Shown here in pieces: positions 44,045 to 45,571 of a DNA stretch of 64,000 nucleotides. Origin of the DNA: Abditibacteriota bacterium (GTDB lineage: Bacteria; Armatimonadota; UBA5829); assembly GCA_017552965.1 (NCBI GenBank), contig JAFZNQ010000039.1:1-64000 (forward strand), given 5' to 3'. The notes beneath the pieces are model-generated. The model was not told where the DNA came from. It saw only the letters and a list, made by a program, of their open reading frames with translations, and did no database searches. The position numbers and the translations under genes were made by a program. Numbering within the stretch: the stretch's first letter is position 1; each line of letters starts with the position of its first letter.

Positions 44045-44073
44045 TTGACATATTAAACGCAGGCTGGTATAAT
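44045..44073 (+). promoter_or_regulatory. Perfect consensus promoter of the small-peptide array
   Basis: TTGACA (44045-44050), 17-bp spacer, TATAAT (44068-44073). GAGGTG at 44095-44100 provides the first ribosome site. Confidence 0.9.
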
Positions 44074-44106: not shown

Positions 44107-44199
44107 ATGTACGAAGAACCGAAGATCGAAATAGAAGACCTGGAAGTAGCCGACGTGATCAGCGACTACGAGTCCGACTTTGACGGCGAGTGGGCATAG
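44107..44199 (+). CDS. Array peptide 1 (30 residues), leader-like acidic peptide
   Basis: The peptide begins MYEEPKIEIEDLEVADVIS and ends DYESDFDGEWA. GAGGTG lies 6 bp before ATG. The first 19 residues are identical to peptides 4 and 5 (apart from the start codon), although the codons differ: peptides 1 and 4 have six synonymous and no amino acid differences over these 19 codons. This is strong evidence for translation and selection on the protein. The C-terminal 11 residues are acidic and aromatic with no Cys, Lys or Arg. The leader/variable-core layout resembles RiPP precursors, but no modifying enzyme is adjacent. Function unknown. Confidence 0.85.
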   Translation: MYEEPKIEIEDLEVADVISDYESDFDGEWA

Positions 44200-44234
44200 T
44201 TCCGAAAACTGTATTGGAAAAAGGGAGAAGTCTC

Positions 44235-44330
44235 ATGTACGAAGAGCCGAAGATCGAGACAGAAGAGCTGGAACTGACCGACGAGATCGGTACGGACCAC
44301 CCGTCCGATTTTGAAACGCCCATCGCGTAA
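44235..44330 (+). CDS. Array peptide 2 (31 residues)
   Basis: GGGAG precedes ATG 44235. The leader is MYEEPKIETEELELTDEIG, the most divergent of the six: Val17 becomes Glu and Ser19 becomes Gly, while Tyr2, Glu3, Glu4, Pro5, Ile7, Glu8, Glu13, Asp16 and Ile18 are kept. The C-terminal part is TDHPSDFETPIA, sharing SDF and TP with peptide 4 (NSDFDTPMF). It is the only member with a histidine. Confidence 0.83.
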   Translation: MYEEPKIETEELELTDEIGTDHPSDFETPIA

Positions 44331-44365
44331 GATAAGGGAAGCGTTTGGTCAGAAGGAATAGTGCT

Positions 44366-44470
44366 ATGTACGAAGAACCCAGGATCGAGACAGACGAACT
44401 GGAAGTAGCCGACGTGATCAGCACGGAAGGCCCCGGCGACCCCTCCGAGTGGGGGGACGACGGCTGGTGA
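44366..44470 (+). CDS. Array peptide 3 (34 residues)
   Basis: AAGGA lies 10 bp before ATG 44366. The leader is MYEEPRIETDELEVADVIS (Arg at position 6). The C-terminal segment TEGPGDPSEWGDDGW is Gly/Pro/Trp rich and ends on Trp. The upstream spacer (GCGTTTGGTCAGAAGGAATA) is related to the spacer before peptide 5, so the duplicated unit includes the ribosome site. Confidence 0.84.
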   Translation: MYEEPRIETDELEVADVISTEGPGDPSEWGDDGW

Positions 44471-44514
44471 CGGCGGGCGGGCCCGGCCCGCAAAGCCGTG
44501 AAAGGATTTATTTG

Positions 44515-44619
44515 ATGTACGAAGAGCCGAAGATAGAGATAGAAGATCTGGAAGTCGCCGACGTCATCAGCTTCGGCGATGACGATGAGAATTCCGATTT
44601 TGACACTCCGATGTTCTGA
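44515..44619 (+). CDS. Array peptide 4 (34 residues)
   Basis: AAAGGA precedes ATG 44515. The leader protein sequence is identical to peptide 1. C-terminal segment FGDDDENSDFDTPMF. The spacer before it contains a GC-rich imperfect hairpin (44471-44496) that could slow or partly stop transcription within the array. Confidence 0.85.
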   Translation: MYEEPKIEIEDLEVADVISFGDDDENSDFDTPMF

Positions 44620-44654
44620 GGCTCCGGAAGCGTTTGACCAGGAGTAATGCCGCT

Positions 44655-44753
44655 GTGTACGAAGAGCCGAAGATAGAGATAGAAGACCTGGAAGTCGCCG
44701 ACGTGATCAGCCTTGGCGACGACTGGGAGTCCTACAACGGCGAGCTGGGCTGA
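44655..44753 (+). CDS. Array peptide 5 (32 residues, GTG start)
   Basis: The start is GTG 44655, ten bases after AGGAG. The homologous codon in peptide 3 is ATG, so the start changed without loss of the frame. An ATG at 44646 is out of frame. The leader is otherwise identical to peptide 1 and the C-terminal segment is LGDDWESYNGELG. Confidence 0.82.
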   Translation: MYEEPKIEIEDLEVADVISLGDDWESYNGELG

Positions 44754-44797
44754 CCTGCCGAAAAAAGTTATAATTTTGCGCAGAATACCGCTCTGTA

Positions 44798-44826
44798 TTG
44801 ACAAAGCGCGGTGTTTGTGCTATTAT
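44798..44826 (+). promoter_or_regulatory. Internal promoter before array peptide 6
   Basis: TTGACA (44798-44803), 17 bp, TATTAT (44821-44826); an overlapping TATAAT sits at 20 bp. Peptide 6 can therefore be expressed separately. Confidence 0.8.
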
Positions 44827-44863
44827 AATATATGTAATGCATTACACATCAAGGAGTACGACC

Positions 44864-44965
44864 ATGTACGAAGAACCCATCATTGAGATCGAGGAGATCG
44901 AGGTCTCTGACGTGATCAGCACAGATCCTCCCGGAAGCGACCCCGCTAACGAGGACGATTATTAG
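44864..44965 (+). CDS. Array peptide 6 (33 residues), separately promoted
   Basis: AAGGAG at 44851-44856 lies 7 bp before ATG 44864. The leader is MYEEPIIEIEEIEVSDVIS: Lys6 is replaced by Ile and Leu12 by Ile, the second most divergent leader. The C-terminal segment TDPPGSDPANEDDY resembles the Gly-Pro-Asp-Pro type of peptide 3. It has its own promoter and a terminator 7 bp after its stop. Confidence 0.85.
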   Translation: MYEEPIIEIEEIEVSDVISTDPPGSDPANEDDY

Positions 44966-44972
44966 AAAAATT

Positions 44973-45001
44973 GGCAATGCTCATGCATTGCCGTTTTTTT
45001 T
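44973..45001 (+). terminator. Terminator of the peptide array, abutting the next start codon
   Basis: GGCAATG pairs with CATTGCC (loop CTCATG), followed by eight T. The T-tract ends at the ATG of the phosphatase gene (45002). Confidence 0.85.
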
Positions 45002-45571
45002 ATGACCATATATCTCATCAGACACGGCGCCACCGAGGCCAATCTGCGCCGCTGTTTCCTGGGGAGCACAGACCAGTCCCTGACGCCGGAAAGTATCCGC
45101 GAGCTGAAGGGGCGCTCCTATCCGCCCGCGGGCGCCGTGGCCGTGTCGCCCATGACAAGATGCCGGGAGACCGCGGACATAATATACGGCAGCAATTACA
45201 AAGTGTATCCCGATCTGCGTGAGATAGATTTCGGCGAGTTTGACAACAAAAATCACGAGGAGCTTCTTCGGGAGCACCACTTTTATCAGACCTGGCTGGA
45301 CTCGGGGGGCGCTCTGACTCCGCCGGGAGGCGAGCCGGCCGGAGACTTCCGCCGCAGGACCTGCCGCTGCTTTTTGCAGATCATAGCCGAGACGCGGCAG
45401 TTCCCCCTGGCCATAGTGGCCCACGGCGGCACCATAAAGGCCCTTACGGACGAGTACCTTGACAACGATGCCGGAAAGGAGTTTTACTTCTGGTCGGTGA
45501 AAAACGGCGGAGGCATCGTGTGCGAGTGGGACGGAGAGAGGCTGAGGATGGTGGGCAGATTGTTTGACTGA
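45002..45571 (+). CDS. Histidine phosphatase (phosphoglycerate mutase-like) family protein
   Basis: 189 residues. The phosphohistidine motif Arg7-His8-Gly9 in YLIRHGATEAN confirms the start. Further family features: VSPMTRCRETADII, REIDFGEFDNK and the second active-site histidine in VAHGGTIKAL. Members of this size include CobC (alpha-ribazole phosphatase), broad phosphatases and PGM-like enzymes; nothing here selects among them, and no cobalamin genes are nearby. Unusually, the ATG directly follows a terminator T-tract and no Shine-Dalgarno is present, so it depends on readthrough or on an unusual initiation mode. Confidence 0.88.
   Translation: MTIYLIRHGATEANLRRCFLGSTDQSLTPESIRELKGRSYPPAGAVAVSPMTRCRETADIIYGSNYKVYPDLREIDFGEFDNKNHEELLREHHFYQTWLDSGGALTPPGGEPAGDFRRRTCRCFLQIIAETRQFPLAIVAHGGTIKALTDEYLDNDAGKEFYFWSVKNGGGIVCEWDGERLRMVGRLFD

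Follow-up and report, generated by a model that had tools for sequence, protein, structure and literature searches.

Linear polyphosphorylated peptides (LPPs) have been described from the lpp cluster of Paenibacillus alginolyticus (Popov et al. 2026; PMC13381572), in which a YxxP precursor held by LppB is phosphorylated by LppK and cleaved by LppS; the family is reported as restricted to Bacillota (PMC13381572). The discrete RREs of lasso and LPP systems bind a leader motif of the form [Y/W]xxPx[L/V/I/A/F/Y] (PMC13381572), and discrete lasso-type RREs recognise a YxxPxI-type motif (PMC12710340). The leader tyrosine of BsfA, a phosphorylated lasso peptide, is at position -17 (PMC10368454), and core Ser3 is the phosphosite of both LppA (PMC13381572) and BsfA (PMC10368454). 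Changes to the Y, P and L of the BsfA motif did not stop phosphorylation.

Six tandem genes for short acidic peptides

The genome of a rumen bacterium of the Abditibacteriota (G000) contains a tandem array of six short genes within a 64-kb stretch of DNA that was analysed as a whole and is referred to here as the window. All six are on the plus strand, flanked by leuS (on the minus strand, extending leftward from 43882) and by a plus-strand histidine-phosphatase gene (45002..45571) whose product is an alpha-ribazole phosphatase-like branch-1 protein. Written as leader followed by core, peptide 1 (44107..44199) is MYEEPKIEIEDLEVADVI and SDYESDFDGEWA, peptide 2 (44235..44330) is MYEEPKIETEELELTDEI and GTDHPSDFETPIA, and peptide 3 (44366..44470) is MYEEPRIETDELEVADVI and STEGPGDPSEWGDDGW; peptide 4 (44515..44619) has the same leader as peptide 1, MYEEPKIEIEDLEVADVI, with the core SFGDDDENSDFDTPMF, peptide 5 (44655..44753; GTG start) is MYEEPKIEIEDLEVADVI and SLGDDWESYNGELG, and peptide 6 (44864..44965) is MYEEPIIEIEEIEVSDVI and STDPPGSDPANEDDY. 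The products are 30, 31, 34, 34, 32 and 33 aa long in that order, and the frames, starts and size range (30-34 residues) are as described in the initial annotation, as is the separate ribosome site that it ascribed to each gene, a purine-rich one being present shortly upstream in 6/6.

A sigma-70 promoter with 12/12 consensus positions (TTGACA-17-TATAAT, with a TG preceding the -10) is located upstream of peptide 1 (44045..44073, plus strand), and a second (TTGACA-17-TATTAT, 11/12) upstream of peptide 6 (44798..44826, plus strand). Just 3' of the second promoter is a 14-bp perfect palindrome, TGTAATGCATTACA (44833..44846), the core of which (TAATGCATTA) is also found 5' of the orthologous gene of a related genome (see below); this is a possible operator. 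An intrinsic terminator follows peptide 6 (44972..44993, plus strand), with a 9-bp stem and then T8.

All six peptides fit the leader pattern MYEEP-x-IE-x4-E-x2-D-x-I, and within it Tyr2-x-x-Pro5-x-Ile7 corresponds to the recognition-element motif [Y/W]xxPx[I/V/L]. The leader had initially been placed at residues 1-19; the motif stands, but its probable end, from the spacing to relatives, is Ile18. The motif has six matches across the six frames of the window, every one in the array, and the matching DNA pattern is found at only the six array sites in the 2.78 Mb genome, with zero in the reversed control. The array leader is under purifying selection. Codons 2-18 have pS = 0.51 and pN = 0.11 (pN/pS = 0.22) over all pairs of seven sequences, including the orthologue noted above, which bears out the selection first proposed from the identity of leaders 1 and 4 despite six synonymous differences; over the same codons all 6 differences between these two are synonymous. 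Whole peptides have a net charge of -10 to -12. Pfam and NCBIfam searches with them return nothing significant, and matches to thiopeptide leaders were dismissed as weak (E 0.23-0.25). A search of viral contigs for a viral origin of the array gave no match.

The acidic C-termini (net charge -3 to -6) contain no Cys, Lys or Arg beyond residue 18, as was first observed, but they are not arbitrary in the way that their description as simply different might suggest. A serine is present 7-9 residues from the C-terminus in 7/7 peptides (the six of the array and the orthologue), and is directly followed by Asp or Glu in 6/7; within-core shuffles give p of about 1e-4 for the Ser and 1e-5 for the Ser-Asp/Glu pair, values that are inflated by the relatedness of the sequences and are not true probabilities. 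Residue 19 is also Ser in 6/7. None of the array peptides has Ser at core position 3.

A degenerate DNA pattern applied to 101 relatives finds the peptide only in G000 and in G002, a genome of the same genus from yak rumen, and an HMM search of 61 genomes recovers the six array members and the G002 copy, the rest being chance-level matches. The suggestion that the leader motif be sought in related genomes yields one orthologue, and no other genome of the family has one (12 remaining genomes). G002 encodes a single peptide gene in the same place, in the order leuS, peptide, phosphatase. It is most similar to peptide 6, and because of this closeness peptide 6 is probably the ancestral copy from which the array grew. 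The adjoining histidine phosphatases of G000 and G002 are 57% identical, and no close orthologue is present in G001, the third genome of the genus in the comparison, or in the other relatives searched; the phosphatase is a possible but unproven functional partner that might act on phosphopeptides. G001 is also without the peptide and without a PqqD protein, and its frame L016, considered as a family member, is unrelated. Frames beginning MKDYENP in G000 (C25) and G002 (C18) adjoin a queG-like gene and look like the starts of longer proteins rather than genes for short peptides.

Candidate modification enzymes on a second contig

G000 contig C62, which is not the contig of the array, holds two RiPP-type loci, cassettes A and B. 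Cassette A (about 27.57-29.17 kb, minus strand) consists of overlapping genes for an HprK-like kinase (P0005), a PqqD-type RRE immediately 3' of it, and an adjacent S26 SipW-like peptidase, and is orthologous and syntenic in G002. The kinase is found in 2/14 family genomes, G000 and G002, the same two that encode the peptides; the chance of such a match is 1/91 if the two are independent, but the genomes are related and the profile reflects a single evolutionary event or a few. The assemblies are draft MAGs in which the array and cassette A contigs are joined by binning only, and a binning artefact is disfavoured because G002 shows the same pairing. The annotated neighbours of cassette A include ETF, isocitrate dehydrogenase, FtsE, FtsX and a PcsB-like protein; homologues of an MsbA-like transporter, an NTP transferase, LppD and LppN are absent among these annotated neighbours (16 kb, part of the ORFs).

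The RRE matches PF05402 and is closest to the lasso B1 proteins TfuB1 (1.9e-7) and TbiB1. A four-sequence RRE profile matches LppB (9x8z) at 9e-7 and PbaB1 (9x90) less well (0.0028), and N35, D72 and F76 of the cassette A protein are spaced like N33, D70 and F74 of LppB, which are in contact with the leader around its Tyr and Pro. The peptidase has a match below cut-off to TIGR02228, and its Ser, His and Asp correspond to S29, H68 and D93 of LppS and are conserved in 5/5 sequences compared. The kinase has a weak match to TIGR04352 and an invariant P-loop; its structural model (pLDDT 94) has an HPrK/PEPCK fold, ranking PEPCK entries first and then HPr kinases at probability 1.00 (1knx, 1kkl and 3tqf).

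Cassette B (about 39.6-43.7 kb of C62; L069:3575-7653) is found in G000 only and encodes an HprK-like protein, a precursor of the YEEP type with one Cys (MEKYEEPIMEVEEVAEDVQTVFPGGHGGNDDQSACYDASAVMDSNG), a radical SAM/SPASM protein, a formyltransferase-like protein, a PqqD protein and an S24/S26 peptidase. The radical SAM/SPASM maturase has no NCBIfam match above a model's cut-off. The presence of a formyltransferase in such a cassette looks unusual. Radical SAM, ATP-grasp, C39 and ABC exporter proteins had been put forward as candidate partners of the array, and none of these is the best fit; the radical SAM protein sits in cassette B with a precursor of its own.

Elsewhere in the phylum, in other families, the kinase is often found beside an S26 peptidase. 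Four loci in these families (L096, L106, L112 and L114) have small peptides whose [Y/W]xxP leaders end close to a Cys and whose cores contain Cys, encoded near HprK-like kinase and S26 peptidase genes, and these may form a second, Cys-type branch. Within the family itself, at locus L055 (G009:C19), genes for a radical SAM protein and a PqqD protein accompany a small gene with a poly-Tyr end (MEINEESKTVKKKYVSPETVKHEPLDIVRGSGSYSSLYYTYYYYYYY), a YxxP precursor candidate.

Related peptides in gut Clostridia

When 84,980 species are scanned with a stringent pattern, seven contigs are recovered, including three from Clostridia encoding YE-x-P...DVI peptides, and a kinase/RRE/peptidase cassette is present in two of these three Clostridia genomes. 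Among 197 genomes of the Clostridia order to which one of the three belongs, the pattern occurs in five, and the kinase is present in 5/5 of these versus 46/192 of the others (0.001 under independence and 0.004 without the seed genome, counting the kinase only). The co-occurrence is less strong than these counts suggest: in 4/5 pattern-positive genomes (L159, L164, L165 and L166) the kinase is solitary, located beside larC and not beside an RRE. In 13 of the best 30 kinase loci of the order, an RRE and an S26 peptidase are both encoded no more than about 1.5 kb from the kinase.

In the gut Clostridia genome G311 a YEEP acidic precursor (MKELYEEPVIEIVHFQPEDIITNDSVPGGDDIETGGDEW) lies 5' of a kinase-RRE-peptidase set, and an acidic lipoprotein-like frame separates the two. 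A search with a strict YxxP pattern around 20 Clostridia kinase loci (within about 7 kb) gives 3 matches versus 4 in reversed sequence. Precursor and kinase are thus rarely linked in Clostridia, and the search by itself does not reach significance. Two of the three matches are plausible precursors from their likeness to the peptides described here.

Like the array, the gut Clostridia peptides (YE-x-P...DVI[TR][TA]S) have the same 17-residue Tyr-to-Ile spacing, kept when they are aligned on the Tyr, are sometimes several per genome, and are mostly not close to enzymes; two with acidic Trp-bearing cores are near kinase/RRE genes. They differ from it in having less acidic leaders, cores that are often rich in Gly and Thr, and, in most cases, Ser at core position 3. 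Those tested against Pfam and NCBIfam have no match.

Proposed maturation and relationship to known systems

We consider it likely that the six genes encode LPP-like RiPP precursors and that the kinase-RRE-peptidase set on the other contig acts on them in trans. This reading is favoured because of the YxxPxI motif, the co-occurrence in two genomes, the fold and active-site signatures of the enzymes, and the YEEP precursors at such cassettes elsewhere. It agrees with the earlier proposal of RiPP-type precursors whose processing enzymes are encoded at another place, a proposal that the leader motif and the candidate enzymes support, and with the expectation of a chemistry not needing Cys or Lys, since the Ser phosphorylation and leader cleavage predicted by analogy would need neither.

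The array peptides could instead be unmodified acidic proteins or signals that act as made, such as nucleic-acid mimics or secreted signals, with the RRE-leader likeness arising by convergence. Their strong charge and strong promoters, and the lack of any such enzyme gene next to the array, are compatible with this, but the division of each peptide into a leader that is conserved and a core that varies, the YxxPxI motif, the match in distribution between peptides and cassette, and the occurrence of YEEP peptides beside such cassettes in other genomes make it unlikely. A different RiPP chemistry, with modification by the radical-SAM cassette B in place of cassette A, is in our view quite unlikely. 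The YEEP precursor of cassette B, together with its HprK-like, radical SAM/SPASM, formyltransferase-like, PqqD and peptidase genes, makes cross-recognition of YEEP leaders plausible; against this, cassette B is already supplied with a Cys-containing precursor whereas the array cores have no Cys, and G002, which has an orthologue of the array, encodes a single small stand-alone PqqD, the one in cassette A. The other PqqD of G002 (C207, corresponding to C99 in G000) adjoins ABC-transporter genes and was set aside.

A lasso structure, in which the cores would be cyclised onto Asp or Glu 7-9 by a lasso cyclase, is suggested by the YxxPxI leader at lasso spacing, by an RRE that is closest to lasso B1 proteins, and by Asp or Glu at core positions 7-9 in several array peptides. 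It is nonetheless largely refuted, and very improbable, by the enzyme content of the genomes: the B2 domain (Transglut_core3) has no match in G000, G001 or G002, and its matches in other family members are mostly in long frames; the Asn-synthase (cyclase) search finds nothing in G002 and only two marginal, partial matches in G000, each scoring about 21 bits and located on contigs other than that of the cassette, and no cyclase gene lies beside the cassette. Most improbable of all, the frames could be regulatory, with their translation acting through the hairpin at 44972-44993 to control the phosphatase encoded downstream. That hairpin does lie between peptide 6 and the phosphatase gene, in an order maintained in G002, but its sequence differs there, as a plain terminator would, and six copies with separate ribosome sites, selection at the amino acid level and the absence of a regulatory codon run all argue against such a function.

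In the LPP-like reading, residues 1-18 would form the leader, with Tyr2-x-x-Pro5-x-Ile7 gripped by the stand-alone PqqD-type RRE, which would present the core to the HPr-kinase-like enzyme for phosphorylation of a core Ser. The RRE would then present the precursor to the SipW-like Ser/His/Asp peptidase for cleavage near Ile18/residue 19, and the predicted product is an acidic phosphopeptide, linear and about 12-16 residues long. One cassette A set could serve all six precursors and so generate six related products. Because Ser3 is missing, the candidate target residues are Ser19 (core position 1) and the internal Ser, and the internal Ser is favoured because it is present in 7/7 peptides.

These comparisons suggest that the LPP-type family, reported from Bacillota only, may extend to a very different phylum in a form with several products, an Abditibacteriota rumen lineage appearing to use the same three-enzyme logic with precursors that are unlinked and amplified six-fold. 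More tentatively, and with somewhat less than even confidence, we propose that one dispersed kinase-RRE-peptidase set and a tandem library of six precursors yield a mixture of linear acidic peptides, (poly)phosphorylated but lacking the Ser3 phosphosite, outside Bacillota, with related orphan precursors through gut Clostridia. Unlinked precursors of this kind would be missed by neighbourhood-based mining. The proposal provides a first biochemical hypothesis for the unnamed YE-x-P...DVI peptides found in gut Clostridia, and the natural core variants on one leader offer a test set for serine choice by an RRE-dependent HprK-like kinase.

The phosphorylated lasso peptides (paeninodin with PadeK, and BsfA with BsfK of Bradymonas sediminis; PMC10368454) resemble the array in their [Y/W]xxPx[L/I] leader, and in having a discrete B1 recognition protein and an HprK-like kinase that acts on a core Ser (PMC10368454), and the Tyr-to-core spacing of the array matches the BsfA Tyr at -17 (PMC10368454). 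They differ in encoding a B2 transglutaminase-like peptidase and an Asn-synthetase-like cyclase, the former absent from G000 and the latter not convincing there.

The LPPs have 1-3 linked precursors of 35-200 aa (PMC13381572), whereas the array has six unlinked precursors of 30-34 aa in another phylum. The LPP leader is YxxPxVLxHQxIxFETxxS (PMC13381572) and that of the array YEEPxIEx4Ex2DxI, so that only YxxPx[I/V] is shared; the LxHQxIxFET part is not present in the array peptides. The LPP phosphosite is Ser3, while the array peptides have Ser1 (6/7) and the internal Ser (7/7) in acidic cores of 12-16 aa, and the NTP transferase and MsbA-like transporter of the LPP cluster are not seen at cassette A. 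The array departs from the Bacilli leader consensus and from the linkage to a transporter and NTP transferase, and for this reason we do not file it as an LPP. It nonetheless shares with the LPPs a YxxP leader with variable C-termini, a discrete lasso-type RRE, an HprK-like kinase and a SipW-like Ser/His/Asp peptidase in the gene order K-B-S, and a core pathway without a lasso B2 protein or cyclase; it is an LPP-like RiPP system, but not a strict LPP.
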